NCBI GenBank assembly: GCA_900319625.1 | Contig: ONPD01000002.1 | Span: 1 to 64,000 of the forward strand | Origin: an uncultured Treponema sp. | GTDB taxonomy: Bacteria; Spirochaetota; Spirochaetia; Treponematales; Treponemataceae | Reading direction: 5' to 3' | DNA length: 64,000 nt | Shown here: in pieces, positions 1 through 21,791 of the stretch | How positions within the stretch are numbered: the stretch's first letter is position 1 | Layout: every line of letters begins with the position of its first letter | Notes under the pieces: generated by a model | What the model was told of the DNA's origin: nothing | Seen by the model: the letters and a program-made list of their open reading frames with translations, nothing else | Database searches by the model: none | Made by a program: the position numbers and the translations under genes

Positions 1-200
1 AAACCAAGAGAACCCGCTGTTATTAAATCATCTTCAATTTCTTGATTGTACCCCGGAAAAGATCTTGCACACTTGATGATAAAAGGAATGTTTGCGACGA
101 TAAGTTTATTGCGGGCAGCAAGATTTCCTGCTGCGGCAAGCTTAAGATACTCAAGTTCTTCTTGAGCTGAAAGAATTTTGGTAGCTGGGAATTTAAACAT
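1..200 (-). CDS. Sigma-70 family factor, N-terminal part (runs off window)
   Basis: The ATG lies at 200 reading leftward and the gene leaves the window after about 66 residues. The visible protein begins MFKFPATKIL and is almost identical to the complete sigma factor at 4114-4755, at a constant offset of 4555 bp, with only scattered substitutions. The visible part is the start of sigma region 2 (core-RNA-polymerase binding). The ribosome site GGAGG at about 207-211 (read on the minus strand) and the upstream DNA to about 312 are also duplicated. It is transcribed away from the SLOG gene at 453-953, whose terminator at 410-444 lies upstream of it. By analogy with the second copy it may head another cassette beyond the window edge; this is inference. 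Confidence 0.85.
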   Translation of the reverse strand, partial: MFKFPATKILSAQEELEYLKLAAAGNLAARNKLIVANIPFIIKCARSFPGYNQEIEDDLITAGSLG

Positions 201-312
201 ATTGGCCTCCTTGAAAAATAAAAAAAAACGACAATTTTTAAACTTTTTTAAATTTTGAGTACGAACTTAGTTGTTTCCTTCCCTGGTTATGTCAAAGAAC
301 AGTTTAGTTAGG
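1..312. repeat. Long direct repeat, copy 1 (sigma gene start plus upstream region)
   Basis: Bases 1-312 match about 4556-4862 with few substitutions and small indels in A/T runs. The repeat covers the first third of the sigma gene, its ribosome binding site and about 110 bp upstream. On the minus strand the upstream part contains TCTTTGACA (TTGACA at 295-290), a good -35 candidate, followed by a GGGAAGG stretch. The match fades after 312, just beyond the TTGACA box, so gene and promoter appear to have been duplicated as one unit. Confidence 0.8.
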
Positions 313-409
313 TGTTTTTAATTGATTTTTTTTATATATATTTAATAGATAAAGTCCCTCGGAAATGTTAAAAAAGTAAGGCATTTTTGGGGTAGATAAC
401 AAAAAATGA

Positions 410-444
410 AACAGGCTCCGCCTTTTTTGGCAGAGCCTGTTTTT
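410..444 (-). terminator. Intrinsic terminator after the SLOG gene
   Basis: ACAGGCTC (411-418) and GAGCCTGT (433-440) form a stem, extended by imperfect pairs around a T-rich loop. It sits 10 bp beyond the stop of the gene at 453-953. A/T runs on both sides could make it work in both directions. Confidence 0.75.
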
Positions 445-452
445 GTAGAAAT

Positions 453-953
453 TTATTTTATATCCCGCCATTGAATAGTAACGACAATTTTGTCCTTACG
501 CATGGCGTAATCCAGGGTGTGCCAGGTGCCGCCGGTGTGAGGGTCAGCCTGGTCGAAAATGGCTACGACAAAGTCGCTTTTGTCGACCATATACTTGTTG
601 CGGTCGAGGTAGGCGTCGTTGCGGCGTTCCTTGGTAGAAACGGGATGTACGAAGTCGGCTTTTTCGAGGATGGGTTTGATTTCCTTGCGTCGGGCATTGT
701 GGCCTTCGTAGGGCTGGGCAATTTCCAGAATGAGGCCTGGGTTTGTTTTCTTTTTTTCGAGGACGATTTCACTTGCCCAGGTGTCGATACCAAGAGCATT
801 GCCGGCGATGAAATGATTGCAGCCTTTTGCAATTAAATCGTCGATGGCATCTTCAAGGCGGCGGAAAAGTACCTGGCATCTCGGGTCGTTTTTATCAGTT
901 CCCCAGGGAAAAGCTTCTGGTCTGTGACCGGTAAAACAAGTGATATAATTCAT
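453..953 (-). CDS. SLOG-fold nucleotide-binding protein (DUF1273/YpsA-like)
   Basis: The 166-residue protein opens with CFTGHRP, the hallmark of the DUF1273/YpsA branch of the SLOG (Rossmann-like) superfamily. Later segments fit the same fold: FIAGNALGIDTWASEIVL (glycine-rich nucleotide-binding loop) and DKSDFVVAIFD followed by GGTWHTLDYA near the C-terminus. SLOG proteins bind nucleotides or derived signals and often occur in conflict or stress systems. It is the last gene of a minus-strand run (sigma, MoxR ATPase, small protein, VWA protein, this gene), 8 bp after the VWA gene and before a terminator, so co-transcription is likely. The ligand cannot be read from sequence. A truncated SLOG-like remnant of another type lies at 12347-12546. 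Confidence 0.8.
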   Translation of the reverse strand: MNYITCFTGHRPEAFPWGTDKNDPRCQVLFRRLEDAIDDLIAKGCNHFIAGNALGIDTWASEIVLEKKKTNPGLILEIAQPYEGHNARRKEIKPILEKADFVHPVSTKERRNDAYLDRNKYMVDKSDFVVAIFDQADPHTGGTWHTLDYAMRKDKIVVTIQWRDIK

Positions 954-961
954 AAACCCTC

Positions 962-2374
962 CTACAACTCCACGAACAAGGTTTCCACTTCACGGCAAAA
1001 TTTGTTAAAAGCTTCATCATCCAGACAGGTCACTTTTTTCCTATTATTTGTCCAGCAGATTCCGTAGCAGGAACAGCGGAGCTTTCTTATTTCAGCCAGC
1101 CAGTTTTCAAGAAAGTCATAATAGTCACTAATGATAAAAATCTTATCATTTTCGCTGCAAAAGCGGCTGGCGGTGTATCTGATTGCGGGGGCAATTTCGG
1201 TGCCGCAGCCGCATGGGATTTCACTTATGCCCTGACTAAGAGAATCGATTTTCTGCAGATCTGAATCCCAGAAAATCACTTTACTTTGCTGACCAACAAG
1301 GTTTTTAATTTCAGAAAATAGATCCAGAAGCTGGGCAAGGCGTTCTCTTCTTACAGAACCGCTTGTGTCAACTATGATGTAAACGTTTCCCTGAGTGTAA
1401 TCATTATGCTCGATTGATTTCCCCCGCAGAATATTGTCTGTTTTACCCCTGTTTGCAAGATAGAGATAATCAGTTCTGCTATCCTCAAATTTATCAATTG
1501 CGCGTTCTGTAATAAAAGTGCGGACATCAGGACCAAGCTTACGAATTGTAAAGCATCTTGTTTTTCCATAGCCTTCTTTCGAACTCTTTCCGTCACCAGA
1601 GCTCAAAGCCTCGGCAATGAACATATCCTGATTTTCAGCCGCTTTTTTTATTACCTCTGCCGGAATCTTGCTTGTTTTTTCTATAAATTTACCTTCTTCA
1701 TTACGCAGCTTTTCACAGATTTTAGGCATAACCAGATCCGGAGCTAAAATGATTAAATCTATATACTGCTGCCAGGAAAGTCCGCGGGAAAATCCATAAT
1801 TTTCTGCAAAAACAGGAGTTACAATTGTCACCTTTGGATTGTCCCGCTTTGCGTAAGCATATCGGCAAAGTCTTCTATATGCATCCGCATGTCCTGCAAG
1901 ACGATTTTCTGAAATGTATGAAAGCCTTTTGTATTCCGCCTGATTCATATCTTCAATAAGGAACTCCTCTTCATCCTTATCGAAAACCTTGCTGTTTAAC
2001 TCCATATCCATAGCGTAATTTTTCAAAAGAACGATTAAACTAAACATTGTCCTGTCTTCGTCCTTTTGCGTAAAGGAAATATATTTTGAAAAGCTCTTCC
2101 AGGCTCCCATCAGTTTGTCGTAAATCTGTTCGTTATTAATATCTTCAAAAGAAAGATGGTGTAAAAGAATATGGCCGATTTCATGCATAAAAAAGGAATG
2201 ACCGCTGCAAAACTCAGAGGTGTAAATTTTGTAACAGGCGCCTGCGTTTTCATCCCGCTTTACGTATGCAAGCGCCTCGTTTGATAAATCATCCTTTGAA
2301 ATCTTGTTATGAGTACAAACCACAAGGCGCATTTTCTTTTTCAGCTCTTCAAAATGTCTGTATTCGTGTTTCAT
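962..2374 (-). CDS. Metallopeptidase-like plus VWA-domain protein (DUF2201-type)
   Basis: The 470-residue protein has two parts. The N-terminal half carries HEIGHILLHH around residues 64-73, matching the HExxH zinc motif of putative metallopeptidase domains. The C-terminal part has DTSGS around residue 334, the MIDAS metal-binding motif of von Willebrand factor A domains, and continues VIFWDSDLQ and CGCGTEIAPAI. This order is typical of DUF2201-type proteins, which pair with MoxR-family AAA+ ATPases in chaperone-like or conflict systems. The partner ATPase is upstream at 2691-4028, with one small gene between. No signal peptide is seen, so it is probably cytoplasmic. Whether the HExxH domain still cleaves protein is unknown. 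Confidence 0.8.
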   Translation of the reverse strand: MKHEYRHFEELKKKMRLVVCTHNKISKDDLSNEALAYVKRDENAGACYKIYTSEFCSGHSFFMHEIGHILLHHLSFEDINNEQIYDKLMGAWKSFSKYISFTQKDEDRTMFSLIVLLKNYAMDMELNSKVFDKDEEEFLIEDMNQAEYKRLSYISENRLAGHADAYRRLCRYAYAKRDNPKVTIVTPVFAENYGFSRGLSWQQYIDLIILAPDLVMPKICEKLRNEEGKFIEKTSKIPAEVIKKAAENQDMFIAEALSSGDGKSSKEGYGKTRCFTIRKLGPDVRTFITERAIDKFEDSRTDYLYLANRGKTDNILRGKSIEHNDYTQGNVYIIVDTSGSVRRERLAQLLDLFSEIKNLVGQQSKVIFWDSDLQKIDSLSQGISEIPCGCGTEIAPAIRYTASRFCSENDKIFIISDYYDFLENWLAEIRKLRCSCYGICWTNNRKKVTCLDDEAFNKFCREVETLFVEL

Positions 2375-2382
2375 AAGTCTTT

Positions 2383-2691
2383 TTACCCCCTATTTAAACT
2401 TCTTTTATCTGAACTCAGATAAGCAGAATAGATTTTGAAAAATGCATCTGCCGGTACATTTTTTACGTCCCCGTTTTCAAGGCAATAAATCCCGGAAACA
2501 TCTGAATAAGGGACAGTTTTCAGAGAATCAAGAGAGCGGGAATTTTCCTCTTCGAGAAGAAATAAAAAATTCCCCCTGATTCCAAGCTTGTAATAATCCT
2601 TGAATTTGCCTGAGTTTTTTTCTCTTTTGGCAAATCTTGAAGTATCTTTGATTTTTGCAAGAACGATTTCTTCCATATCGTTTTTAATCAT
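2383..2691 (-). CDS. Small protein of unknown function in MoxR/VWA operon
   Basis: I chose the ATG at 2691 because it overlaps the stop of the upstream ATPase gene as TAATG, a classic translational-coupling arrangement; an upstream start at 2715 is possible but less attractive. The protein (102 residues) begins MIKNDMEEIVLAKIKDTSRF and contains a charged middle and the segment YSDVSGIYCLENGDVKNVPA. I recognise no family. It is 8 bp from the VWA gene. Its place between a MoxR ATPase and its VWA partner suggests an adaptor or substrate role, which is inference only. Confidence 0.65.
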   Translation of the reverse strand: MIKNDMEEIVLAKIKDTSRFAKREKNSGKFKDYYKLGIRGNFLFLLEEENSRSLDSLKTVPYSDVSGIYCLENGDVKNVPADAFFKIYSAYLSSDKRSLNRG

Positions 2692-4028
2692 TATGCTGCC
2701 TCCGTTTGAATACAAGTGTTCATGTAAAATTTGTAAGTAGTTATGATTTCATTCAGCTTTGATAAAGTTGAGTTCTTTTTTGAAGCCGAAAGAGCCTCTG
2801 ATGCAATTAAATAAAAGATTTCTATTGCGTCATAATCCTTGCGAAGCTTTATAAGCTCTGCTTTAGATTTTTTATTGATAAAAAGAAGCTTTGATATGCT
2901 GTCGGTATCTGTTTTGAATTCTTCCTCAATTTCAGAAACGATTTGCATGCAGGCTTCTTCAGCCTCTTCTGATTCAAGCTTATCCTGAAGGGTAATAAGG
3001 GCGTCTATATTTTCTGCAAGGCTGAGCTTGAAATTGTAAGAGAAAGTTTTCTGCTTCTTTTTCTTGCCCCAAAGCTCATTCAAGGCGTCTTTTGTAAGCT
3101 CCCGGATAAACTTTCTGTAAGCATTGAGCTCCTGGATATCAGAAAAAGAATTAAAGCCAAGCCCAATCAGTCCATCAATAAATTTTCCGATATATTCTGC
3201 ATTACTTAATCCGATTGAGTACATAGCGCAGAAAATGTCCCGGAAATATCCGATGGTTCTGCCCGAAATAAAATTATAAACCTCACCGTTTTTGGAATAT
3301 TCACCGGTAAAAACATTGTTCAGCCGTTTATTTGCAAAATTTAACTGACTTTTTGAGCTGTCTTTTGCGTAGTAGGTTGAATTAAGCTTTTCAAAAATCC
3401 CGCGGACTGCAAGAGAGGCTTTTTCTTTGATTTCTTCTGAAAGCTCGCGATGATCGAAATCCGGTAAAAACTTTTCTATAGCATCAGCTTTCTGAAGGAA
3501 TTCTGTATAAAGGCCTTCAAAGGACTGAGGACCGAAGTTTATAAGGCAAAAGCGGTTAAGATTCGGTGCTGTAATATCGCACATTGAAGGAAGATTATCC
3601 TTGTAGTTGCTGGCACTTGCGATAATTGTTGATTCAGGCAGTTTCTGACCATTGCCGATTGTACGTTCAAAAATAAGGCGGTAGAGGCTGGCCTGAACAT
3701 CCTTAGGGGCACCCGCAATTTCATCAATAAAAAGAACAGAGGGGATGCCGTTTTTTTCAAACTCGGTGATTGTATGAAACCATTCCGGTGCCTTTGTACG
3801 AAGATAATCAGTACCTGCTCCATCATTTACCATATAACCAAGAATCTCGCTGCGGTCGAAGGCACTGCCAATAAGGCTTTCTACGTGATAGCCATTACGC
3901 TTTGCCCACAAATTAACGATTGTGGTCTTACCCATACCAGGGTTTCCAAGATAAAGCATTGGTACACCCGAAATTCTGCTTAATTCAAAGCCTGTAAGCA
4001 TCAGGTCACGCATGTAATTTTTGTTCAT
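2691..4028 (-). CDS. MoxR-family AAA+ ATPase
   Basis: The 445-residue protein has a Walker A motif GNPGMGKT near residues 28-35, Walker B VLFIDEIAG about 70 residues later, a sensor-like ASNYKDNLPSM segment and an NRFCLINF segment consistent with a MoxR core. The C-terminal 200 residues are helical with Lys/Glu-rich stretches and may form the lid and partner-binding part. MoxR ATPases work as chaperone motors together with VWA-domain proteins, and the VWA partner is two genes downstream (962-2374). The upstream neighbour is the sigma gene, 85 bp away with hairpins in between, so transcription may be partly uncoupled from it. Substrate unknown. Confidence 0.85.
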   Translation of the reverse strand: MNKNYMRDLMLTGFELSRISGVPMLYLGNPGMGKTTIVNLWAKRNGYHVESLIGSAFDRSEILGYMVNDGAGTDYLRTKAPEWFHTITEFEKNGIPSVLFIDEIAGAPKDVQASLYRLIFERTIGNGQKLPESTIIASASNYKDNLPSMCDITAPNLNRFCLINFGPQSFEGLYTEFLQKADAIEKFLPDFDHRELSEEIKEKASLAVRGIFEKLNSTYYAKDSSKSQLNFANKRLNNVFTGEYSKNGEVYNFISGRTIGYFRDIFCAMYSIGLSNAEYIGKFIDGLIGLGFNSFSDIQELNAYRKFIRELTKDALNELWGKKKKQKTFSYNFKLSLAENIDALITLQDKLESEEAEEACMQIVSEIEEEFKTDTDSISKLLFINKKSKAELIKLRKDYDAIEIFYLIASEALSASKKNSTLSKLNEIITTYKFYMNTCIQTEAA

Positions 4029-4045
4029 TTTTACCTCATGTGTAA

Positions 4046-4103
4046 GCCCGCCGGTCAGAGCGGGCGGTGTTCTATAGATACAGCAGGCCGTATTTGGCCT
4101 GCT
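4046..4103. other. Two short hairpins between sigma and MoxR genes
   Basis: GCCCGC/GCGGGC (4046-4065) and AGCAGGCC/GGCCTGCT (4082-4103) are inverted repeats in the 85-bp gap. The second has a T-run only in the plus direction, so neither is a clear terminator for the minus-strand genes here. They may lower read-through or protect an mRNA end. Confidence 0.45.
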
Positions 4104-4113
4104 TTTTAATTAA

Positions 4114-4755
4114 TTAGCTGGCAAGCTGTTGAAGATTTTGATTTTGACGAAGATGTTTTAGAGCATTTTGTTCGATTTGCTGCATACGAGAACGGGTTCT
4201 GCCTTTAATTGCCCCGATTTCTTCAAAGGTATGAGCTTTCTGGTTATTTAAGCCGTAATGTAAAATTAAGACTTCCTGTTCATTTGGCTTTAATGTATTA
4301 ATAGCAGCCATAAGTTTTTCTTTTTTAATGTTATTTTCACACTCTTCATCAAGTGAAAGATTAGATGTATCTGCAAGATTTGCTACGAAAGAGTCCTGGT
4401 CACCATCTGAATTATAGGTGGCATCTAGTGAGAGTAAAGAGAGTTTTTTTCTGCGGCTCCCTACTGATTTTTGCATGAAGGAGTTGATGTAGAATTTACC
4501 GATGGTAAGAAGTCTGGTGCCCATTGTAAAATCATATTTCTCTATGGCTCTCATTAAGCCAAGAGAACCTGCTGTTATTAAATCACCTTCAATTTCTTGA
4601 TTGTACCCCGGAAAAGATCTTGCACAGTTGATGATAAAAGGAATGTTTGCGACAATAAGTTTATTGCGGGCAGCAAGATCGCCTGCTGCGGCAAGCTTAA
4701 GATACTCAAGTTCTTCTTGAGCTGAAAGAATTTTGGTAGCTGGGAATTTAAACAT
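4114..4755 (-). CDS. RNA polymerase sigma-70 family factor (short, regions 2 and 4)
   Basis: At 213 residues this is shorter than a housekeeping sigma. Residues 15-90 match region 2: an NKLIVANIPFIINCA helix, then DLITAGSLGLMRAIEKYDF. The 130-200 segment matches region 4, with LKPNEQEVLILHYGL and a helix-turn-helix ending RSRMQQIEQNALKHLRQ. Region 3 is reduced to a short linker. It should direct polymerase to a specific set of promoters. RBS GGAGG lies about 6 bp before the ATG. It heads the MoxR/VWA/SLOG cassette and has a nearly identical paralogue starting at 200, so it may control its own cassette; that is inference. Its upstream region carries the TCTTTGACA box also found before the sigma gene at 12650. 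Confidence 0.9.
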   Translation of the reverse strand: MFKFPATKILSAQEELEYLKLAAAGDLAARNKLIVANIPFIINCARSFPGYNQEIEGDLITAGSLGLMRAIEKYDFTMGTRLLTIGKFYINSFMQKSVGSRRKKLSLLSLDATYNSDGDQDSFVANLADTSNLSLDEECENNIKKEKLMAAINTLKPNEQEVLILHYGLNNQKAHTFEEIGAIKGRTRSRMQQIEQNALKHLRQNQNLQQLAS

Positions 4756-4862
4756 ATTGGCCTCCTTGAAAATAAAAAAACGACAATTTAAACTTTTTTA
4801 AATTTTGAGTAAGAACTTAGTTGTTACCTTCCCTGGGAATGTCAAAGATCTGTTTAGGTATG
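4556..4862. repeat. Long direct repeat, copy 2 (sigma gene start plus upstream region)
   Basis: This is the partner of 1-312. The TTGACA box on the minus strand is at 4845-4840. Small differences are concentrated in A/T runs and at about ten positions in the coding part. Confidence 0.8.
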
Positions 4863-4875
4863 TAAATATAATAAA

Positions 4876-4904
4876 GAGCCAGTCCCACGTTAAGGAACCA
4901 GCTC
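4876..4904 (-). terminator. Probable terminator after the WYL regulator gene
   Basis: As minus-strand RNA the segment forms an 11-bp stem (GAGCUGGUUCC with GGGACUGGCUC, three G-U pairs) around a 7-base loop, followed by UUUAUUAU. On the plus strand the same arms pair poorly. It lies 57 bp beyond the stop of the gene at 4961-5983. Confidence 0.5.
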
Positions 4905-4960: not shown

Positions 4961-5983
4961 TTATAATTCGATTTTTTTTACTTTTTCCCGTCTTTCCAGC
5001 CAGTCATCGACAAGTTCTTTTGGTGCAATCGGAAATGCTTCGTCAGCCCATTGCCAGGTCCAGCGGCGGATGGAAAATAGCTGGTTACTGCGGAAGCTTA
5101 GAATGATGCCGTCTCCGTCGGGGCCGGGATTTTTTTCATCAGGGGTTATAGTCTGGTTTTCGCCCCAGATGCGGTTTTTAGCGTAGCGGGCGGCGTAACC
5201 GTGAAGGTGGATTTTGAAGTCCAGAAAATAGTCGTGGCACATACAGCCGAAGGAACCGCGGGTCATTTTTCTAAAATCGTAGTCTTTCGGGAGCGTGAAA
5301 CTCTCGTCTGTGAGCTGAATATTTTTCATTTCGCTAAGGGTATAGCGGCGCTTTCCTTTTTTTAAAATGTCGAACGCATGAAGATTCCAGTTACCGTTAT
5401 CATAAATCAGCTGCCAGGGCTGAACTCTGCGGTTCGAAGGCTTTGTGTCGGTAAGCGACTGATAGTCAAATGTAATTACGCGGTTTTCCTGCAGGCCTTT
5501 GTCGATTAAGCGCCAGGTTTCAGCAGGGATGTCCTTGTTTGGAGCTCCAACAAAAATAATTCTGTCGTTGTCAGGTTTTTTGTTGATTCTGATGTTTTCA
5601 ATTGATAAATCTTGAGTTTCTGTAGAAAGTGATTGAAAAACTTCCTGAGCTTCCTTGTAAAGAGGGTTGTCTTTTACCATATCCATAAGCGTTTTTATGA
5701 GTTTTGCAGCTTTTGCGGCATTTTCATCTGTGTAAAAGCGTGGCAGACGGTAGTCTGGATCGGTGTAAAAATATCCTCTTGTTTTAAAATCAGTATCTAT
5801 TGGTGCCTGATATTTTACTTCCATTTCTTCTATATCGCGGAAAAAGGAGCTTTTGCTTGATTTGATATTATATTTTTCGCCAAGCTCGGAAACTATCTGA
5901 CTCCATTTTAATCTTCGTCCCGAAGCAATAATTTCATCCATTGCCTGATAGCGTTTTGATTTTTCAGTAAAGTCTACTGCCAT
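4961..5983 (-). CDS. WYL-domain transcriptional regulator
   Basis: The 340-residue protein starts with a winged-helix region (about residues 10-75, with SQIVSELGEKYNIKSSKSSF then FRDIEEME), the layout of DeoR-like HTH domains fused to WYL domains. The WYL part begins near residue 165 (ITFDYQSL) and includes RRVQPWQLIYDNGNWNLHAFD, where the signature W-Y-L triplet reads W-N-L. WYL proteins bind ligands, often nucleic acid or nucleotides, and control defence and DNA-damage genes. It is divergent from the operon of small proteins and the double AAA+ ATPase (6103-9597), sharing a 119-bp promoter region, so it is the likely regulator of that operon. Confidence 0.85.
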   Translation of the reverse strand: MAVDFTEKSKRYQAMDEIIASGRRLKWSQIVSELGEKYNIKSSKSSFFRDIEEMEVKYQAPIDTDFKTRGYFYTDPDYRLPRFYTDENAAKAAKLIKTLMDMVKDNPLYKEAQEVFQSLSTETQDLSIENIRINKKPDNDRIIFVGAPNKDIPAETWRLIDKGLQENRVITFDYQSLTDTKPSNRRVQPWQLIYDNGNWNLHAFDILKKGKRRYTLSEMKNIQLTDESFTLPKDYDFRKMTRGSFGCMCHDYFLDFKIHLHGYAARYAKNRIWGENQTITPDEKNPGPDGDGIILSFRSNQLFSIRRWTWQWADEAFPIAPKELVDDWLERREKVKKIEL

Positions 5984-6000: not shown

Positions 6001-6059
6001 TTCCCTTAACTTGGGAACAGTACAGTATTACATTTTATATCATCAGAATAAATTGTCAA
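6001..6059 (-). promoter_or_regulatory. Promoter and candidate operator of the WYL gene
   Basis: On the minus strand TTGACA (6059-6054) and TAAAAT (6037-6032) are separated by 16 bp. Just downstream lies the inverted repeat TTCCC-N7-GGGAA (6001-6017), well placed for autorepression and within the intergenic region shared with the divergent operon. Binding by the WYL protein is inference. Confidence 0.5.
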
Positions 6060-6102: not shown

Positions 6103-6276
6103 ATGACAGATTTTTTAACACTGGCGGTGCTTATTGTTTTAATAGGCTCATTTATTTTTAAGTCTGGGGAACTTTTCATTGCTATTTTTAAACTAATAGC
6201 GTATTTTGCCTTACCCCTGACTATTGCGGGAGTTATTTTCTTTGCATCGAAACTAATCAACTGGTTTCTTCACTAA
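6103..6276 (+). CDS. Small membrane protein (57 aa)
   Basis: The ATG at 6103 follows an excellent ribosome site (AGGAGG at 6089-6094, 8-bp spacing). The 57-residue product is almost entirely hydrophobic, with two predicted membrane segments (about residues 4-19 and 29-50) split by a short KSGE turn. I recognise no family. It opens the operon read away from the WYL regulator and ends 16 bp before the next gene. In conflict systems tiny two-helix proteins of this kind can be membrane effectors or anchors, but nothing here proves that. Confidence 0.7.
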   Translation: MTDFLTLAVLIVLIGSFIFKSGELFIAIFKLIAYFALPLTIAGVIFFASKLINWFLH

Positions 6277-6292
6277 AACGACAGGAGGAAAT

Positions 6293-6799
6293 ATGAATTA
6301 TACAGATGGAAAAAAATGCTTAAAGGAAATCCTTGCGGCAGTTACAAGGGAAGATGAAAAAAATTATCTTCTGGAAGTTGAGTATGTAAAGCATTACAAG
6401 GGGGTAGTGCTGGGGCCGATTTATAAAGACGGTTATGGAAACTATGTGACTGTCCATAAAACAAAAAGCGTCACTATCAAGCTCGATGAAGATGACACTG
6501 ATGAAAGCTACACCTGGAATAGTTTTAAGGAGGCCAGGATAAAACTTGAAAAGTGTGAAAATTCTGGCAGCAGGGCCTTTCATGTAAAGAAGGGGCTTAA
6601 AGTTGCTTTTAAGCACGCTATGTTTCTTGATGATGTTTTTCTCGATGGAATAAAACCTCTCTGGTTCAACTTGTACACTGAATGGTTACATTCCAGATAC
6701 GAATACATTCAGGCTCATAAAAGTGAGTGGCAAAAACAAGTAGATAGAATGAGTCCGATAGGTGTTCCTGATGCATCTGCACTATTTAGAGGTAAGTAA
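6293..6799 (+). CDS. Hypothetical protein, WYL/AAA+ operon
   Basis: The 168-residue soluble protein begins MNYTDGKKCLKEILAAV after an AGGAGG ribosome site. It is rich in charged residues with aromatic-rich stretches (KPLWFNLYTEWLHSRYEYIQ). No signal peptide, membrane segment or known motif is visible. Its stop overlaps the start of the next small gene (TAATG), so translation is probably coupled. Function unknown. Confidence 0.75.
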   Translation: MNYTDGKKCLKEILAAVTREDEKNYLLEVEYVKHYKGVVLGPIYKDGYGNYVTVHKTKSVTIKLDEDDTDESYTWNSFKEARIKLEKCENSGSRAFHVKKGLKVAFKHAMFLDDVFLDGIKPLWFNLYTEWLHSRYEYIQAHKSEWQKQVDRMSPIGVPDASALFRGK

Positions 6800-6927: not shown

Positions 6928-6966
6928 CTGGTAGCTATATTAAATTGATTTTTGGAGGAAATGCTT

Positions 6967-7191
6967 ATGTCATATTTTGATGTAAATTTGGATGGTATAA
7001 TTCAGAACTTTAGTCACAATTCTTACATTGTAAAATTGAATGAAAATACCAGTCTTTCTAAACTGGAATGGCAAATTAACCTGATTGTAGGAGATATGGA
7101 CAAGGCCGGTTTTTTTCCGGTTGATACTTCAATTTCTTATATTGAAGCTGAAGAAACTTATCTGGCAAAAATGATTTTTGGAAAAAAATAA
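6967..7191 (+). CDS. Small hypothetical protein (74 aa)
   Basis: I chose the ATG at 6967 because GGAGGA (6954-6959) stands 7 bp upstream; alternative starts at 6952 (TTG) and 6961 fall on or too close to that site. The product begins MSYFDVNLDGIIQNF and is soluble and acidic. No family recognised. It is the fourth small gene before the double AAA+ ATPase and is probably part of the same transcription unit. Confidence 0.65.
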   Translation: MSYFDVNLDGIIQNFSHNSYIVKLNENTSLSKLEWQINLIVGDMDKAGFFPVDTSISYIEAEETYLAKMIFGKK

Positions 7192-7281: not shown

Positions 7282-9597
7282 ATGATAACAAGAAGAAGTC
7301 GAAGAGCTGGAAAATTGGATAGCAGACTGTATGGCATGAATGTTGAAGATATTTCAAAAGAAGAGATTTTAAGCTCGGTCGCATATCTTTTTCTTCTTAC
7401 TCAAAATGCAAATTCCGGATCACTGGATGTAATTTATCCATTTATTGAAAAACTTGTCCTCAGACTGGGCTTATGGGAGCGCATGAATGAGGTTCTGCAA
7501 ACATACGTTGATTTTCTGGAAAAGAAGCAAATCCTTCGCCTTTGTAATCCAAACAGCCCGGAAGGTAAGCCAAGGTCTCTTAGAAGCTGTATTGAGGATG
7601 ATGAAGCTTCTGAAGCTCCTAAGTATGAAGTAGATAAGCAAATAGAAATATACCAGGGTAACCTTGTAGGTGAAGAAAGAAATTTCTATCGCATTATGCT
7701 CTCTAAAGGCACTGGTATGCTCTCACAGATTCTTTATCATATCTTTTTCAATAAAAGAGAAATGAATTTTGAAAGATTCCAGAGTGTATTGCCAGTTCGC
7801 ATTGCATACATTATGTCAAATACCTCAAAAGTTGATTTTTTAAAAGATGAATTGAATCTTTCAGACGAAGAGGCAAGGTATCTTCTTTTCAGATACCGTA
7901 AATTGACAATCGATGGCTTTGCCGAAGTTCTGGATTCTTTTGGCTATAATTCAATGTACTTATACAAAACAGTACTTGGTATAAACCAAAGCCAGTTTAA
8001 GCAGATCACAAGAAGTGACTCAAAGCTTCATCAGTTCGGTTTTATTGAATATGACAGAAGCTTGAATCCTTTAGTTGTTGATATTATTGATAATCAGGAT
8101 TTAGGCATTTATTTTGCAGATTTTATAAAAAGTCAGGAGCTTGAAGACACTTATCCTCTTAACAGTTTTCCTGTTCCTGAGAAAAATTCTTCTATATATA
8201 AGGGCTTGTTGCAGTCTGATACTCCAGTTTCTGTTCTTTTGTACGGCGCCCCTGGTTCAGGAAAAACAGAGTATGCAAAGGCTCTTGTCAAAAGTTCCGG
8301 CAAAAAGGCTCTGGTCTTTAAAAATGAATCAGAAGTTATGGGAAGAAATGATGTTCTCAGCAGATTAAACTGTCTTCTTTCTTTGAATCGTAAGGATACA
8401 GTTCTTATTGTTGATGAAGCAGATTCCCTTCTTTCAACCTCAAGAATGTCTCTCTTTGGCCCTTTTGAATCACCAAAAACAAAGGGAGTCGTTAATAAGA
8501 TGCTGGAGCTGTCTCAGAATAAGGTAATCTGGGTAGTAAACTATATTTCTCAAATTGACGAAAGTACCTTAAGACGTTTTACGGTTTCTCATAAATTTGA
8601 GCCGATGTCAGTTTCAATGCTGGAAAAAATTGCGGAAAAGAAGCTGGAAAAACTTGAAATTGAAAAGTCTTCTAAAAAAGAAATTGTAAGACTCCTTTCA
8701 AAATACAAGGTTACCGGTTCATCTGTTGAAAATCTTATTACGACGGTAAACAGCATGAAAGACAAGACAGATGAAAAAGTCCTTGAAAACCTGGAAATTG
8801 TTTTGAAGGATAATTCATCACTTTTACACGGAAATTCCAAAATGCGAACCCACGTGAAAGACTCTTATGATATGTCCGTTTTGAATACAAGTCTTTCCGC
8901 AAAGAAAATTATGAACATGCTCTATAATGCAAAAAAGTTTGCAGAAAAAAATCCCGAGTCAGGGGCTGTAAGAATGCTTTTTTACGGTCTTTCGGGAACC
9001 GGTAAAACGGAATTCGCCCGCTATATCAGTGAATCTTTGGGAAAAGACCTGCTTTTAAAACGCGCCTCTGATATTTTTGACAAATATGTCGGCGGAACGG
9101 AGCAGAATATCGCAGCCGCCTTTGAAGAAGCCGCTAAAAATGACCAGATTCTCCTCTTTGACGAAGCAGACAGCTTTTTCAGCGACAGAAAAAATGCAGA
9201 AAGAAATTTTGAAAGAACTCAGGTAAATGAATTCCTTACCCAGCTTGAAGAATTCCCGGGCATTGTCATCTGTACTACCAACCTCAGAAATATTATGGAC
9301 CCCGCAATGCTGCGCAGGTTTCATATAACGGTTGATTTCAAGGCTTTGAAAGAGGAGGGTGTTAAAAAGCTTCTGGAAAAATTTTTCAGTAATTATGCTT
9401 TTGATGAAAAACTTATCGAAAGACTCTGTGCTTACGGTAGTGTAACCCCGGGTGATTTTGGAAAGCTTTCCGACACAATCAAATTTATGGACCCTGACGA
9501 AATTACCGCAGAATACATAATTGCCCAGTTGTGTGAGATTCAGGAGGAAAAAGACGTAGAGGGCAGGGCTTCCAGAAAAATCGGATTTTGCGCATAG
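7282..9597 (+). CDS. Tandem AAA+ ATPase (two ATPase domains, 771 aa)
   Basis: The N-terminal 300 residues are helical and unassigned. The first AAA+ domain has Walker A GAPGSGKT (about residues 322-329) and Walker B LIVDEAD (about 375). The second has Walker A GLSGTGKT (about 569-576), Walker B LLFDEADS (about 624) and arginine-finger-like LRRF (about 675), and is typical of the FtsH/SpoVK/Cdc48-like class. The first domain also has a divergent LRRF segment. Such proteins remodel or extract proteins as hexamers. It is the main enzyme of the operon that faces the WYL regulator, with four small proteins encoded upstream as possible partners. RBS GGGAGA lies before the ATG. Confidence 0.85.
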   Translation: MITRRSRRAGKLDSRLYGMNVEDISKEEILSSVAYLFLLTQNANSGSLDVIYPFIEKLVLRLGLWERMNEVLQTYVDFLEKKQILRLCNPNSPEGKPRSLRSCIEDDEASEAPKYEVDKQIEIYQGNLVGEERNFYRIMLSKGTGMLSQILYHIFFNKREMNFERFQSVLPVRIAYIMSNTSKVDFLKDELNLSDEEARYLLFRYRKLTIDGFAEVLDSFGYNSMYLYKTVLGINQSQFKQITRSDSKLHQFGFIEYDRSLNPLVVDIIDNQDLGIYFADFIKSQELEDTYPLNSFPVPEKNSSIYKGLLQSDTPVSVLLYGAPGSGKTEYAKALVKSSGKKALVFKNESEVMGRNDVLSRLNCLLSLNRKDTVLIVDEADSLLSTSRMSLFGPFESPKTKGVVNKMLELSQNKVIWVVNYISQIDESTLRRFTVSHKFEPMSVSMLEKIAEKKLEKLEIEKSSKKEIVRLLSKYKVTGSSVENLITTVNSMKDKTDEKVLENLEIVLKDNSSLLHGNSKMRTHVKDSYDMSVLNTSLSAKKIMNMLYNAKKFAEKNPESGAVRMLFYGLSGTGKTEFARYISESLGKDLLLKRASDIFDKYVGGTEQNIAAAFEEAAKNDQILLFDEADSFFSDRKNAERNFERTQVNEFLTQLEEFPGIVICTTNLRNIMDPAMLRRFHITVDFKALKEEGVKKLLEKFFSNYAFDEKLIERLCAYGSVTPGDFGKLSDTIKFMDPDEITAEYIIAQLCEIQEEKDVEGRASRKIGFCA

Positions 9598-9645: not shown

Positions 9646-10440
9646 ATGCAGAAAATGATTGAATTTTTATCTCAGTACAAAAGAAAGAAAATGCCGGGTT
9701 GGTTGAAAAACCTGAATCCGGATGACGACAGGAAACCAGATATTCAGTACATTTTGAACGGACGGGTGGTTTTTTACCCTGCCTGTTATTCTGACGGTTT
9801 TATGGTCGAGGTATTTAATACTTCTCACAGTGCCTTTGTTTATCTCTATGCGGACTATGCAATGACAGAAGAAAAATGGACTGAAATCTTACATACACGG
9901 GAATTAAACGAAAGAAAAACTGATGGTCACATTACCTGCCAGACTTCTGATGGGAATTTCAGAGGCTATGATGAGATAGCCCATTATGATTATTCTTTTG
10001 ATGAAATTGCCGGCCCGCAGGACTGGGAACCTCATTATGAATATAATCACGGTCCTCGGCATGGAAAACGCTTTTGCAGACTTTCTATTTTTGAACGCCA
10101 GGAAATATACAATGAAAACTACGGAGCAAAGCGCTTTGCACTTTTATATATCAACGATGATGGAATAATGATTTATGATGCCCTCTGGGGAAGCAAAAAA
10201 TATAAAGCACCTTTTGCCTGCCTTATGGAAGACTATGGACTTGGCGGAACTTACAACACCTTGGGAAAAGGCGGCCGTATGGAAGCCCTTGCAAAAGAAA
10301 GTGGCGTATATCCCAAGTTTATGATTTTTGGAGAAACGGCGACACCATGGGATAATACAACCAAAGTTCCGGAAGTTTATGCAGAAAAAGGTGGCTGCTG
10401 GGGGCATCTGCGAACTTTATATATGAAAGAAGAAAAATAA
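9646..10440 (+). CDS. Hypothetical protein (264 aa)
   Basis: The gene has its own likely promoter element TATAAT (9626-9631) and a GGAG ribosome site. The protein is soluble, rich in Tyr, His and Trp, with the stretches DEIAHYDYSFDEIAGPQDW and HYEYNHGPRHGKRFCR. No signal peptide or catalytic signature was recognised. Codon use resembles the surrounding island. It stands 48 bp after the double AAA+ gene and may be read with it as well as from its own promoter. Function unknown. Confidence 0.7.
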   Translation: MQKMIEFLSQYKRKKMPGWLKNLNPDDDRKPDIQYILNGRVVFYPACYSDGFMVEVFNTSHSAFVYLYADYAMTEEKWTEILHTRELNERKTDGHITCQTSDGNFRGYDEIAHYDYSFDEIAGPQDWEPHYEYNHGPRHGKRFCRLSIFERQEIYNENYGAKRFALLYINDDGIMIYDALWGSKKYKAPFACLMEDYGLGGTYNTLGKGGRMEALAKESGVYPKFMIFGETATPWDNTTKVPEVYAEKGGCWGHLRTLYMKEEK

Positions 10441-12346: not shown

Positions 12347-12546
12347 TTATTTTATGATAAGTTTGTAGTTTTTGTAATTCTTTCTACACAGATCGATATC
12401 ATTTTTTGTACCAGTAGAAATACCATCCCATAGAATAAGAACAAAATTCGCAGTCTCAACCATTTCGGCATTACGTCTATGACCGGCACCACGGCCATAG
12501 CGTGCCCAGTCTGCCTTATGAGTTTCAACAGGTACAATGTTTTCAC
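12347..12546 (-). pseudogene. Truncated SLOG-family gene (DUF2493/YspA-like remnant)
   Basis: In the frame ending with TAA at 12349-12347 the minus strand encodes ENIVPVETHKADWARYGRGA, then GHRRNAEMVETANFVLILWD, GISTGTKNDIDLCRK and a natural end. The ADW..YG.GAG..RN..M...A...L..WDG.S.GT pattern is the C-terminal half of DUF2493-type SLOG proteins. The N-terminal half is gone: homology stops at about 12546 and the 82-bp promoter-like repeat begins at 12548. So the gene was probably cut by arrival of the sigma cassette. No start codon or ribosome site remains. Confidence 0.65.
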
Positions 12547-12547
12547 A

Positions 12548-12629
12548 AAGTGAGGACCAATTTGTCTATATTATTATGCAGGAAGGAGGGTTCCTTCCAT
12601 GTTCTTTGACAATTTAAGGTAGATAATTT
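12548..12629 (+). repeat. Promoter-region direct repeat, copy A
   Basis: 82 bp identical to 13647-13728 except at three positions. It contains a TGRGGACCAATTTGTC block, TATATTATTATG, the inverted repeat GGAAGGAGGGTTCCTTCC (12581-12598) and TTCTTTGACA (TTGACA 12606-12611). It ends about 20 bp before the sigma gene at 12650. Probably a mobile or duplicated regulatory segment. Confidence 0.75.
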
Positions 12630-12649
12630 TATTTTTTTTAGGAGGCAAA

Positions 12650-13480
12650 ATGACAGAATATTTTAATAATATTGGGAATATCCCTTTATTAACACAGGAA
12701 GAAGAAATCGAGCTTGCTCAGAAAATTGAACAAGGTGGTATTCAGGGCAAACTTGCATTCGATAAACTTGTCTCTGCTAATCTGCGCCTTGTTGTTTCAA
12801 TTGCAAAAAACTATATAAAGAAAGGAGTTTCACTCTCTGATCTTATTCAGGAAGGCAATATCGGTTTGATGCGTGCTGCACAGAAATTTGAATGGAACAA
12901 AGGTTTTAAATTTTCCACCTATGCCACCTGGTGGATAAAACAGGCAATTACAAGATATCTGGCAGAAAAGGAAGATACCATTCGAATTCCAGTTCATAGA
13001 CAACAGCAGATTAAAAACTATAAAAATGAAGTTAGTTACCTCGGTCAGAAATTAGGAAGAAAACCAACAGATAATGAAATTATACAAGCTCTGGGGGTCA
13101 CCAAAGAACAATTAAAGGTAATCAAAAATTTAAACTTCAATACAATTCATATAGAAGATTCTTGTGGAAGTGGTGATCAGGAATGTACTGTTGGAGATTT
13201 TTTAGCAGATGATAAATATGAAAGTGCAGAAAACAAGGCCTGTAATAAACTCATTAATTATCAACTCCAAAAAGATATGAATTCCTACCTCACAAAAAAA
13301 GAACGGGAGGTAATAAGAATGCGTTTTGGGTTTGAGGATGGTTCTGTACAGACTCTTGAAGAAATTGGACAGCATTTGGGTGTAACTCGTGAACGTATTC
13401 GCCAAATTGAAAGTACTGCAATTCTAAAACTTAAAAGGGTTTATAAAACCAGAGGAATTGAACTTTCAGATTGTAATTAA
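12650..13480 (+). CDS. RNA polymerase sigma-70 family factor (group 2/3-like)
   Basis: 276 residues with all core sigma regions except 1.1. Region 1.2 is [19 protein letters not shown]. Region 2 has [21 protein letters not shown] and, further on, [17 protein letters not shown]. Region 3 carries [14 protein letters not shown] and [10 protein letters not shown]. Region 4 ends [19 protein letters not shown]. Compared with RpoD it lacks the long N-terminus, so it resembles RpoS-like alternative factors. RBS AGGAGG precedes the ATG. It lies directly after repeat copy A in an accessory island, like the two other sigma genes here, and so may serve island promoters rather than the core genome. Confidence 0.92.
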
Positions 13481-13646: not shown

Positions 13647-13728
13647 AAGTGGGGACCAATTTGTCTATATTATTATGCAGGAAGGAGGGGTCCTTCCATG
13701 TTCTTTGACAATTTAAGGTAGTTAATTT
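13647..13728 (+). repeat. Promoter-region direct repeat, copy B
   Basis: Partner of 12548-12629. Includes the inverted repeat at 13680-13697 and TTGACA at 13705-13710. It lies 30 bp before the gene at 13758, so the same regulatory segment precedes two different genes. Confidence 0.75.
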
Positions 13729-13757
13729 CAGTATTTTATAATAAGGAGACAAGAATT

Positions 13758-14078
13758 ATGATTAAGAAAGAAGAAAATCTCGGTGTTATTTGCCCTGGAA
13801 GAAATCGTATGACAGAATCGCGAGATCCAGAGTTTGAAAAAATGCTTAAAGAGTTCGCAGCATTTAAAGAATCAAAAACAGGTAATTCAGAAATTACTAT
13901 GCAAGAAGGACTTGAGCTTCGAGAATATTATGAGGAATCAAAAAATCCAGCTTTTCAAGAAGCACTTAAAGATTTTTCTGCATTCAAGGAAGAAAGAACA
14001 GGTAATTCCGAAGTTACTCTGGCTGAAAAAATTGCAATTTATAATCGATTATTACATAAAAATATATTAAACATATAA
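13758..14078 (+). CDS. Small two-repeat protein of unknown function
   Basis: 106 residues, with a clear internal duplication of about 40 residues: PEFEKMLKEFAAFKESKTGN (about residue 23) and PAFQEALKDFSAFKEERTGN (about residue 64), each followed by SE(I/V)T and a helix. All repeats look helical and charged. No signal or membrane segment. AAGGAG ribosome site 10 bp before the ATG. It shares its 82-bp upstream region with the sigma gene at 12650, so both may be switched together. I do not recognise the family. Confidence 0.7.
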   Translation: MIKKEENLGVICPGRNRMTESRDPEFEKMLKEFAAFKESKTGNSEITMQEGLELREYYEESKNPAFQEALKDFSAFKEERTGNSEVTLAEKIAIYNRLLHKNILNI

Positions 14079-16056: not shown

Positions 16057-16091
16057 ACGAAGGTATTCCCGTAAAATGGGAATACCTTCGT
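16057..16091. promoter_or_regulatory. Perfect 14-bp inverted repeat before the DUF2779 gene
   Basis: ACGAAGGTATTCCC (16057-16070) and GGGAATACCTTCGT (16078-16091), 7-base loop. No T-run follows; instead TATATT sequences resembling the island promoters follow. It may end transcription of the 499-aa gene or act as an operator. Confidence 0.5.
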
Positions 16092-16177: not shown

Positions 16178-18313
16178 ATGAATACCAAATTATTCACAAA
16201 ATCAGCTTTTAAGACAGCAATGCACTGTCCAATGCAGGCATATTACATGAGAAACAAAGAATATGAAAATCAAAGTGCGGACGATGATTTTTTGAAGTCT
16301 CTTGCGGAAGGTGGTTTCCAGGTAGGGGCAATCGCAAAAATCTATGGAGAAGTTCCTGCAGAAAATGATTTGGAAGGACTTTCCGGCTATGATGAACCGC
16401 TTGAGAGAACAAAAGAACTCTTCAAGCAGGAAAAGGTGAATATCGCAGAAGCTGCATTCAAATACAAAAACTGCTTTGTGCGTGCTGACATCGTGCAGAA
16501 AGACGGAAACAAAATCACACTCATTGAAGTAAAGGCAAAAGCATGGGCAGAAGATAAATCATTCTATGCAAAAAAGAAGATAGATGGTTTGAATGTTATA
16601 GATGGAAGCATTCGTGATTATGTGTACGATGTTGCCTTTCAGAAATGGGTTATCACAAATGCTCTCAAAGAACTTTATCCAAACCAGAATTATACAGTTC
16701 ATGCGGGACTTATGCTTGCAGATAAAACAAAAGTAAACGATATTCCCCGGCTGAACAGCCTGTTCAGAATCAAGAGTGATAAAAATGGACGATCTTACGC
16801 TGAAATTATTCCAGATGCATATGAAGTTTTGAAAAGTAATCATACTCATGTCATTCGACCGTTTGATGTAGATGAAGAATGTGACCTTATTATTGCGGGA
16901 AGAACCGGCGAGCAGATGGATGTATTTGGAAAGCCGTTCGCTGATTTTGTAGAAGAGCAGTCTAATCGATATGTAAACAATGAAAAAGTTTATTGTGCAC
17001 TAGGCTCAAAATGTTTCAAATGCCCGTTCACATTGAGCGATGAAGGAAAGGCATCCGGAAAAAAGAGCGGCTATGAAGAATGCTGGCGAAAAATGGCGAA
17101 TTTTGAAGATGAAGATTTTGAAAAACCGTCGATAAAAGAACTGAATGGAAGTGGCTTGTCCGGTAAGAACTCGAAAAACAAATGGATAGAAGAAGGACGT
17201 TATTTTATAAGCGACATCACCGAAGAAATATATCCCCGCAAAGAAAGCGAGGGCAATGCACTGTCTACCAATGAACGCAAATGGATTCAGATTGACAGCG
17301 TAAATCAGAACCGTACTGAACCGTATATTTTGAAAGACGCACTGAGAGAAGAAATGCAGTCGTGGATTTATCCGCTCCACATGATTGACTTTGAGACGAC
17401 AAGTTCCGCACTTCCATACCATGCAAACATGAGACCGTATGAAAATGTTGCATTCCAGTTTTCTCATCATGTCATTTATGAAGATGGACGTATTGAACAT
17501 GCGGGACAGTTTTTGAACATAGAGCCGGGCGAATTCCCAAATTTTGCCTTTGTCCGCGAACTGAAAAAACAGCTTGAAAAAGACAACGGCTCAGTATTCC
17601 GCTATTCGAATCACGAAAATACGATTTTAAACGGCATTCATGACCGGCTGGAATATTCCAGAGAAGCGGACAAGGAAGAGTTGATGGCGTTTATCGAGAC
17701 AATCACTCATTATGGAAAGGAGGGAAATCCAGGTTTCCGCAAAGGTGAACGCGACATGATTGACTTGTGCGATGTCGTCAAAAAATACTACTGGCATCCA
17801 AGTATGAAAGGTTCAAATTCAATCAAGCAGGTTCTTCCGGCAGTCCTCAAAAGCAGCTCGTATTTACAGAAAAAATACGGTAATCCAATATACGGTTCGG
17901 AAATCAAAAGTTTGAACTACACGAGCGAAAACGCAATCGCTCTGCTTGTTAAAGACGAGAATGGTGGTGTAAAAAATCCGTACAAAGTACTTCCACATCT
18001 GAAAGACCTTGAAGAACCGATTATTCGTGAAATCGCAGAAGAAGGCCACCTGACCGAAGCTCAGCTACGCAAACAGCTTTCCGCAGATGAGGATGAGGAT
18101 GCAGGATTTGACCCGGACACACAAATCAACAATGGTGGACTTCCGCTTGTCATCTACCGCTACCTTCAGACCTTTGGTGAAAGGACTCTTTCAAGCGATG
18201 TACACAAAAAGACCATCGAACAGGCATTGCTCCGTTATTGCGAGCTTGATACGATGGCGATGGTTCTGGTGTGGGAGTATTTCGCACAGGTGTGTGGTTC
18301 CCGTTATAGATGA
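16178..18313 (+). CDS. DUF2779 protein: Cas4-like nuclease plus DEDD-type exonuclease domains
   Basis: 711 residues. The N-terminal part resembles a PD-(D/E)XK nuclease of the Cas4/RecB type: Cys17, D104 in VRADIVQ, then LIEVKAKAW with the E-x-K pair near 117-119, and a cysteine group YCALGSKCFKCPF with a further Cys in EECW about 25 residues later, as in iron-sulphur-bound nucleases. The C-terminal half carries MIDFETT near residue 402, the first motif of an RNase H-like (DnaQ) exonuclease, then NHEN and LRYCELDTMAMV motifs typical of DUF2779. Such proteins are common in accessory and defence-linked DNA. It stands alone between relics; its promoter region seems newly assembled from repeated island sequence. 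Confidence 0.8.
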   Translation: MNTKLFTKSAFKTAMHCPMQAYYMRNKEYENQSADDDFLKSLAEGGFQVGAIAKIYGEVPAENDLEGLSGYDEPLERTKELFKQEKVNIAEAAFKYKNCFVRADIVQKDGNKITLIEVKAKAWAEDKSFYAKKKIDGLNVIDGSIRDYVYDVAFQKWVITNALKELYPNQNYTVHAGLMLADKTKVNDIPRLNSLFRIKSDKNGRSYAEIIPDAYEVLKSNHTHVIRPFDVDEECDLIIAGRTGEQMDVFGKPFADFVEEQSNRYVNNEKVYCALGSKCFKCPFTLSDEGKASGKKSGYEECWRKMANFEDEDFEKPSIKELNGSGLSGKNSKNKWIEEGRYFISDITEEIYPRKESEGNALSTNERKWIQIDSVNQNRTEPYILKDALREEMQSWIYPLHMIDFETTSSALPYHANMRPYENVAFQFSHHVIYEDGRIEHAGQFLNIEPGEFPNFAFVRELKKQLEKDNGSVFRYSNHENTILNGIHDRLEYSREADKEELMAFIETITHYGKEGNPGFRKGERDMIDLCDVVKKYYWHPSMKGSNSIKQVLPAVLKSSSYLQKKYGNPIYGSEIKSLNYTSENAIALLVKDENGGVKNPYKVLPHLKDLEEPIIREIAEEGHLTEAQLRKQLSADEDEDAGFDPDTQINNGGLPLVIYRYLQTFGERTLSSDVHKKTIEQALLRYCELDTMAMVLVWEYFAQVCGSRYR

Positions 18314-20604: not shown

Positions 20605-20679
20605 TGAGACTGACACGATTCGAACGTGCGACCCCCACCTCCGCAGGGTGGTGCTCTAATCCAGCTGAGCTACAATCTC
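20605..20679 (-). tRNA. tRNA-Arg (anticodon GCG)
   Basis: Cloverleaf read on the minus strand: acceptor GAGATTG/CAGTCTC, D-arm GCTC..GAGC, anticodon stem CCACC/GGTGG with loop CTGCGGA (anticodon GCG), T-arm with TTCGAAT. No CCA is encoded. It is the last of three tandem tRNAs and its 3' end faces the island and is duplicated there. Confidence 0.95.
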
Positions 20680-20710
20680 ATACAAATCTTGTGCAGTAGA
20701 ACTGCTTTCT

Positions 20711-20795
20711 CGGAAGCGACAGGAGTTGAACCTGCCCACCCCTTACGGAAGTGACGGATTAGCAATCCGTTGTATTACCGCTCTACCACGCTTCC
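20711..20795 (-). tRNA. tRNA-Ser (anticodon GCT)
   Basis: Long-variable-arm tRNA on the minus strand: acceptor GGAAGCG, anticodon stem ACGGA/TCCGT with loop TTGCTAA (anticodon GCT), variable arm CACTTCCGTAAGGGGTG, T-arm with TTCAACT. Middle gene of the Ser-Ser-Arg tandem. Confidence 0.93.
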
Positions 20796-20826
20796 AGTTG
20801 TAAACCGGAATGTTATCCAGTTTTAT

Positions 20827-20912
20827 CGGAGCGAGAGGGATTCGAACCCCCGGTAACTTGCGCTACAACGGTTTTCAAGACCGCCCCAGTACGACCGCTT
20901 TGGTATCGCTCC
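20827..20912 (-). tRNA. tRNA-Ser (anticodon TGA)
   Basis: Acceptor GGAGCGA/TCGCTCC, anticodon loop CTTGAAA (anticodon TGA), long variable arm, T-loop TTCGAAT. First gene of the three-tRNA transcript on the minus strand. Confidence 0.93.
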
Positions 20913-21765: not shown

Positions 21766-21791
21766 TTTTGATTTTTTAAGTGAGGTTTTAC

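Follow-up and report, generated by a model that had tools for sequence, protein, structure and literature searches.

A putative WYL-switched MoxR–metallopeptidase/VWA operon with a boxA-like leader in the accessory genome of Treponema

We analyzed a window of 64,000 nucleotides from an uncultured Treponema sp. (GCA_900319625.1, contig ONPD01000002.1, positions 1 to 64,000), near the start of which five minus-strand genes encode a sigma-70 family factor (sigma A), a MoxR-like AAA+ ATPase, a 102-aa protein, a protein combining an HExxH zincin motif with a VWA domain, and a YpsA-type SLOG protein. Our preferred reading, to which we assign a probability of about 0.4, is that this is an accessory Treponema operon for an ATP-driven metalloprotease, switched by a neighboring WYL-domain regulator and headed by a boxA-like leader, that serves in defense against phages or rivals. 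Such an operon would join a MoxR-metallopeptidase/VWA pair, a WYL regulon and an rRNA-type leader in a single sigma-led accessory unit. The source genome comprises 2.56 Mb in 19 contigs and is 84% complete; the first base of the window is also the first base of the contig we call C10.

The MoxR-VWA core and its exchangeable partners

The original prediction had placed five minus-strand open reading frames (ORFs) at positions 453 to 4,755, separated by gaps of 8–85 bp or overlapping, and each was confirmed where it had been placed. The sigma A and MoxR genes lie 85 bp apart, the MoxR gene and the 102-aa gene overlap by one nucleotide (TAATG), and the next two gaps are 8 bp each. The 85-bp gap folds into two strong hairpins (-31.9 kcal/mol, z -4.9, with none of 200 shuffles equally good). 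These hairpins, and a second sigma copy (sigma B) at window bases 1–200, had been overlooked.

A Walker A motif (GNPGMGKT) and a Walker B motif (FIDEI) can be read by eye in the MoxR protein, whose bpMoxR profile score, 13.7 bits, is well below the cut-off of 27. The predicted pairing of HExxH with a metal ion-dependent adhesion site (MIDAS, DxSxS) was borne out: HExxH is present in 16 of 18 aligned relatives of the VWA protein, and both DxSxS and MDMExN in all 18. The two relatives without HExxH lack it because their sequences start past that region. No family matched the 102-aa ORF in profile scans (run on 2383–2715 or 2383–2688), and the small protein of one related locus, L064, scored 17.4 bits against SNaCT14, below the cut-off of 27.

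The VWA protein is patchily distributed. A search of 5.8 billion proteins returned 26 matches, its own cluster included, at that search's sensitivity. With a profile of the family (A1) and a threshold of E <= 1e-20, 15 of 200 same-genus genomes gave a match, as did 2 of the 85 that are at least 90% complete; at E <= 1e-15 it was found in 3 of 392 genomes across the phylum, two of which (the source genome and G082) belong to the same genus. We conclude that the family is accessory in both the genus and the phylum.

We then compared 11 close loci, all from Treponema or Spirochaetaceae and several from ruminants. Eight include the upstream side of the MoxR gene (L058–L064 and L067), and the other three (L065, L066, L068) are contig-cut and miss it. 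A sigma gene stands immediately 5' of the MoxR gene in seven of the eight (L058–L064), as a broken copy in L058 and L059. The 102-aa gene lies between the MoxR and VWA genes in L058, L059, L063 and L064, with a weaker match in L067 (28%) and a partial one in L066, and a YpsA-type SLOG gene follows the VWA gene in L058, L059 (cut inside it), L060, L061, L062 and L065. On one contig, L058 carries a broken sigma A, MoxR, the small gene, VWA, SLOG, a 373-aa gene, sigma B and PARG, and L065 has the right half of a similar array (VWA, SLOG, the tail gene, sigma B and PARG), also on one contig; the tail gene that follows SLOG in L058 is absent from the window between SLOG and the next hairpin. More distant relatives (L094–L098) encode a VWA protein mostly adjoined by a MoxR-like gene at 33–39% identity. 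Thus, the expectation that the gene order would be conserved elsewhere held for sigma-MoxR-VWA, and with SLOG added for the window lineage, L060 and L062, but the exact five-gene order with the 102-aa gene is restricted to the window lineage (the window, L058, and L059, which is cut inside SLOG). Since other genomes share the order, chance does not account for it. The core is MoxR-VWA, preceded by sigma in most close loci, and the remaining genes are exchangeable.

A WYL-type operator and a boxA-like leader

The gene for the WYL-domain regulator sits between sigma A and a divergent operon encoding a 57-aa protein, a 168-aa protein, a small ORF, a double-AAA+ ATPase (AAA2, with relatives in 38 of 118 genomes) and a 264-aa protein. 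Its WYL domain (PF13280) scores 46.6 bits against a cut-off of 21.8; no helix-turn-helix profile matched its N-terminal region, where a winged helix-turn-helix might lie, in the Pfam scan.

The palindrome TTCCC-N7-GGGAA has five exact sites in the 2.56-Mb genome, compared with one control match. Two are inside unrelated coding genes. The other three are promoter-proximal, lying at the WYL/ATPase divergent promoter, ahead of a PARG gene on contig C12 and ahead of a DUF2779 gene, all within the island or its continuation on C12. In relatives, WYL-type sites are also found at SLOG and at sigma. At the target promoters the palindrome occupies the -35 place. In the loci examined, TANNNT stands 11 nt after the palindrome in 15 of 37 oriented sites and at any other offset in at most six. 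When the sites were collapsed manually, 9 of 17 had this spacing, which 0 of 20,000 base shuffles matched, in a test whose sites and orientations were hand-chosen (one orientation for gene-facing sites, both for coding sites). A scan of ten loci allowing up to one mismatch found operators in the window, L010, L058, L061 and L065; the window, L058 and L061 have a WYL gene, L010 continues the window and L065 belongs, as a fragment, to the L058 lineage. The same scan found no operator in L060, L062, L063, L064 or L067, nor was a WYL gene found in any of these five. Elsewhere, a WYL gene 71% identical to that of the window faces a PARG-AAA2 pair in L142 (genome G062), where both PARG and a YAcAr SLOG gene have an operator, and in L143 (genome G015) operators precede a YAcAr SLOG gene and a DUF2779-like gene, with no WYL gene in the 16 kb covered.

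The original prediction had called the cassette an inducible system. Its promoter anatomy fits that description, but points to the WYL regulator, outside the interval first described, rather than to a sigma factor boosting its own operon. The pattern TTCCC-N7-GGGAA-N11-TAnnnT could serve as a readable operator that predicts regulon members and could be used to list them in any treponeme.

boxA stands in the leaders of rRNA operons, and the sigma genes carry an element that resembles it. TCTTTGACAT followed by GGGAAGG was found in nine of ten sigma leaders, with the element shifted by one base in L064; five of these nine leader-bearing sigma genes belong to the window lineage (the window, L058 and L065). 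In L061 (6880–6910) a palindromic insertion of about 27 nt (CCTGGGA...TCCCAGG) splits the element. Allowing up to one mismatch, 31 of 196 genomes contain the pattern TCTTTGACATN4AGGGAAGG, at 39 sites in all, compared with two control sites. Rfam, run on 20 leader-element loci, placed an adjoining rRNA gene at four (23S at L102, L120 and L124; 16S at L115), where the elements, from four other genomes, lie roughly 50–155 nt 5' of the rRNA genes. A boxA-like leader likewise stands ahead of a sigma-AAA2 run in L144 (genome G030) and of the PARG-AAA2 pair in L142.

The SLOG gene appears tied to the same regulon. The window protein matches PF06908 (YpsA; 2.7e-21, 76.7 bits against a cut-off of 27.7) and the YpsA structure 2nx2 (3e-6). 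In T. ruminis (L063) a SLOG protein of a different family, YAcAr (PF10686, 8.2e-17), is encoded just upstream of sigma, and the SLOG genes of L058 and L065 each have a WYL-type site immediately ahead of them. The tail place that the original prediction assigned to SLOG is thus not fixed. That two SLOG families lie behind the same kind of operator suggests that SLOG contributes to the function of the island rather than being a passenger.

Genes for ADP-ribose-type chemistry recur nearby. The remainder of sigma B (residues 66–213) lies at the end of C12 (L010), with a TIGR02452/PARG-like gene behind it; L058 and L065 each carry sigma B and PARG on one contig. PARG adjoins AAA2 in L142 and lies behind SLOG in L060, and an ADP-ribosylglycohydrolase gene (PF03747) lies about 1–5 kb from sigma in L047 and L147, in the latter also about 3.4 kb from AAA2. 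L144 assembles the same types of part separately: behind the leader come sigma and AAA2, then two unknown genes, and then the genes for a macro-domain protein and a VWA-like one (23.0 bits against a cut-off of 23.8).

Proposed mechanism and competing readings

In the mechanism we propose, the switch is the WYL protein, whose gene lies beside the operon and whose candidate palindromes precede -10-like hexamers by 11 nt at PARG and the ATPase operon, in this genome and in relatives; relatives have the same spacing at sigma and SLOG, and at WYL's own promoter the palindrome is just downstream. By analogy with PafBC-controlled promoters, the ligand-bound WYL protein would activate its targets and, less surely, restrain its own gene. 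Nus factors would bind the sigma leader, either carrying polymerase through the hairpins that follow sigma or repressing, as at suhB, until released. MoxR, using ATP and the MIDAS of the VWA domain, would load targets onto the zincin domain. SLOG may read or make an NAD/ADP-ribose-type signal that the PARG, macro or ADP-ribosylglycohydrolase proteins of sister loci would reset, and sigma would probably be a local amplifier rather than the master switch.

A bolder extension, which we regard as distinctly doubtful, makes this an immune island built on rRNA machinery: the WYL promoters and boxA-like leader would load polymerase with Nus factors, and the hairpins would be read through only when Nus factors leave ribosome synthesis or an ADP-ribose-type signal rises. 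If so, an infection-induced collapse of rRNA synthesis would itself be the trigger.

Several observations weigh against our preferred reading. On the regulatory side, the sigma A operator is decayed in the window genome (by eye, TTCC-TTAACGT-GGGAC, 11 nt before TATATT and overlapping the sigma A promoter-like site), and an exact pre-sigma site occurs only in L061. The five MoxR-VWA loci that lack an operator yielded no WYL gene in stretches of 12–19 kb. Exact palindromes also occur with no WYL gene in view (L041, L143, L101, L126 and, inside an ORF, L149), in L101 and L126 with TANNNT at 13 rather than 11, and TANNNT also stands at 11 on the WYL-facing side of L142, contrary to simple autorepression. 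The operator counts overstate independence, since the site sets include homologous loci. For the leader, all four rRNA-linked elements have one mismatch to the pattern, 16 of the 20 loci have no adjoining rRNA gene in the stretch covered (three of them, L112, L117 and L118, because the contig ends within about 220 nt), T. ruminis has no boxA-like leader in the stretches read, and the leader fold is nothing special (z 0.8 to 1.7). As to composition, L067 has MoxR, the small gene and VWA with no sigma, and no sigma match was found beside the MoxR-VWA pairs of L095–L098 or the VWA gene of L094, some of which are contig-cut. L060, L061 and L062 yielded no 102-aa gene; SLOG is missing from L064 and L067 and shortened in L061 (residues 24–96 missing). 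The peptidase activity of the VWA protein is predicted from its motifs, and its DUF2201 score (21.4 bits) is below the Pfam cut-off of 26.4, DUF2201 being given for 8 of its 26 relatives. Finally, PADLOC-DB 2.0.0 gave generic matches only (the MzaA sigma region, IetA and others in AAA domains, and WYL) and none to a known system's own proteins, so the defense role is argued from part types and patchiness.

The original prediction had instead cast the head sigma factor as a dedicated switch, amplifying its own cassette once SLOG reads a nucleotide. The place of sigma immediately 5' of MoxR in seven of eight close loci favors this, as does a motif, CACA-N17-TCTATATTAT, that could be a sigma-specific promoter: it occurs in the sigma promoter region of L060 and L062, which yielded no WYL gene, and heads the divergent ATPase operon of L062 (genome G002) and a second, different sigma gene at window position 12544. 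Two of its six one-mismatch matches (in G062 and G015) also lie less than 6 kb from AAA2 on the same contig. However, all five exact matches are the sites from which the pattern was derived, the six one-mismatch matches compare with four in controls, and the L061 sigma promoter has a WYL-type site instead. Self-boosting is also not supported by L058 and L059, a single lineage in which sigma A is broken while the genes from MoxR to SLOG remain open (sigma B is intact in L058), or by the sigma-less L067. We consider the sigma-switch model quite unlikely. A separate question is whether the GTTCTTTGACA leader is merely the -35 hexamer of the sigma promoter. It does include TTGACA and is conserved at the DNA level, but by eye no conserved -10 lies 16–18 nt downstream, the conserved block reaches GGGAAGG, and one-mismatch copies stand before 23S and 16S rRNA genes, the place of boxA; we find the -35 interpretation improbable.

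The operon may have no role in defense at all. A RavA-ViaA-like chaperone or maturation pair with a peptidase domain, used under stress to mature a surface or metabolic complex and controlled by sigma and WYL in the manner of ordinary stress regulators, would agree with the chaperone-like activity of MoxR-VWA pairs whose function is known (PMC3893208, PMC10585395) and with the BspA-type leucine-rich repeat genes in or beside several loci. Yet the patchiness, the swapped SLOG and tail genes and the association with PARG, macro and WYL proteins fit conflict systems better, and no client gene is fixed in the loci read, which leaves this reading unlikely. We think it highly improbable that the operon is a remnant of a phage or mobile element, with a virion-assembly MoxR and metallopeptidase-VWA pair. 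Group 2.2 jumbo phages do encode a MoxR AAA+ protein adjoining a VWA protein with an N-terminal metallopeptidase domain (PMC7824862). The treponemal locus, however, is chromosomal and includes sigma, WYL and SLOG/PARG, a scan of IMG/VR viral contigs found no relative, and the identified neighbors are PARG, WYL, AAA2, leucine-rich repeat and housekeeping-like genes; no structural phage gene was recognized, though no PHROGs scan was made.

Thoeris and other defenses based on SLOG and NAD signals pair a SLOG domain with ADP-ribose-type chemistry. Here the SLOG proteins are of the YpsA and YAcAr families, no TIR gene was recognized, and the effector would be a protease. The MoxR-vWA NTP-dependent conflict systems share the MoxR and vWA core with the treponemal locus and count SLOG and macro domains among their variable parts (PMC7159879; the ternary scheme is repeated in PMC12839542). 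As differences, no third component of the VMAP, iSTAND or beta-propeller type was recognized by Pfam in nine window proteins and ten further ones, although a diverged one, such as the small protein of L064 with its weak SNaCT14 score, may have escaped, and the word sigma is absent from the text of PMC7159879. With BrxR, CapW and PafBC the locus shares a WYL gene beside an accessory operon, palindromic sites and a fixed spacing to TAnnnT; the PafBC motif is tTGTCRgtg-8 nt-TannnT (PMC5656591), whereas the treponemal site is TTCCC-N7-GGGAA with a spacing of 11 and a putative activator. An rRNA-type boxA is also known 5' of protein-coding genes, namely suhB and a ParE-like toxin gene, where it represses (PMC5725501), but here the boxA-like element heads a sigma-led operon in a spirochaete and has an extra conserved GGGAAGG block. 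The titles and abstract openings covered in the literature do not describe this combination, which is not proof of novelty.

Features of the window and minor observations

Coordinates of features in and around the operon (window positions; E-values where given).
Feature	Position	Strand	Support or detail
Sigma B, 5' part of second sigma gene	1..200	-	residues 1–66, contig-cut
boxA-like leader of sigma B	277..298	-	exact pattern match
Terminator-like hairpin 3' of SLOG	409..442	-	14 pairs, T-rich tail
YpsA-type SLOG protein, 166 aa, predicted nucleotide sensor or nucleotide-processing enzyme	453..953	-	PF06908, 2nx2
HExxH zincin-motif and VWA (MIDAS) protein, 470 aa, predicted protease subunit	962..2374	-	DUF2201-like
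102-aa protein, unknown fold, optional partner	2383..2691	-	
MoxR-like AAA+ ATPase, 445 aa	2691..4028	-	PF00004 (AAA) 1.2e-8, PF07728 1.2e-5
Sigma-MoxR spacer with two GC-rich hairpins	4029..4113	-	folding
Sigma A, sigma-70 family factor, 213 aa	4114..4755	-	Sigma70_r4 1.5e-10
boxA-like leader of sigma A	4827..4848	-	TCTTTGACATTCCCAGGGAAGG, starts 93 nt 5' of sigma start codon
Sigma A promoter-like site	4865..4893	-	TTAACG-17-TATATT
WYL-domain transcription regulator	4961..5983	-	PF13280 3.4e-12, PADLOC WYL 4.1e-25
WYL-type operator towards ATPase operon	6001..6017		TTCCCTTAACTTGGGAA, 11 nt then TACATT (+ strand)
WYL gene promoter-like site	6032..6059	-	TTGACA-16-TAAAAT, 11/12, operator just downstream
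57-aa ORF, first gene of divergent operon	6103..6276	+	
168-aa protein, unknown family, divergent operon	6293..6799	+	
Small ORF, divergent operon	6967..7191	+	in-frame ATG of 79-aa ORF 6952–7191
Double-AAA+ ATPase (AAA2)	7282..9597	+	PF00004 1.9e-37, two stretches
264-aa protein (c9), unknown family	9646..10440	+	
WYL-type operator ahead of DUF2779 gene	16066..16082	+	TTCCCGTAAAATGGGAA, 11 nt 5' of TATATT
DUF2779 protein, candidate further WYL regulon member	16178..18313	+	PF11074 1.5e-25

In L061 and L062 the far end of the cassette encodes relatives of the 264-aa protein; in L062 they are found at both cassette ends (2377–2934 and 12372–13178). To the right of the island are three tRNAs (20605–20912) and, by eye, a thyX-like gene (21780–22628). 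A similar thyX-like gene adjoins the L062 cassette, which suggests the same insertion site.

Contigs break within the duplicated sigma gene in two genomes, at window base 1 and the end of C12 in the source genome and at the ends of C430 and C406 in G111, and sigma copy number is therefore easily under-counted in metagenome-assembled genomes. A second, different sigma gene (276 aa) lies at 12650–13480. Near-identical duplicated leaders with TCTATATTATTA and GTTCTTTGACAATTTAAGG precede it (12544–12640) and an ORF at 13758 (13652–13760).

Tail proteins that by eye resemble HNH nucleases are encoded in L058 (11056–12177, P0027) and in the window (14498–15997). P0027 has 120 matches, one of them named Fibrobacter, and no confident Pfam domain; L143 encodes a protein 99% identical to the 499-aa window protein.

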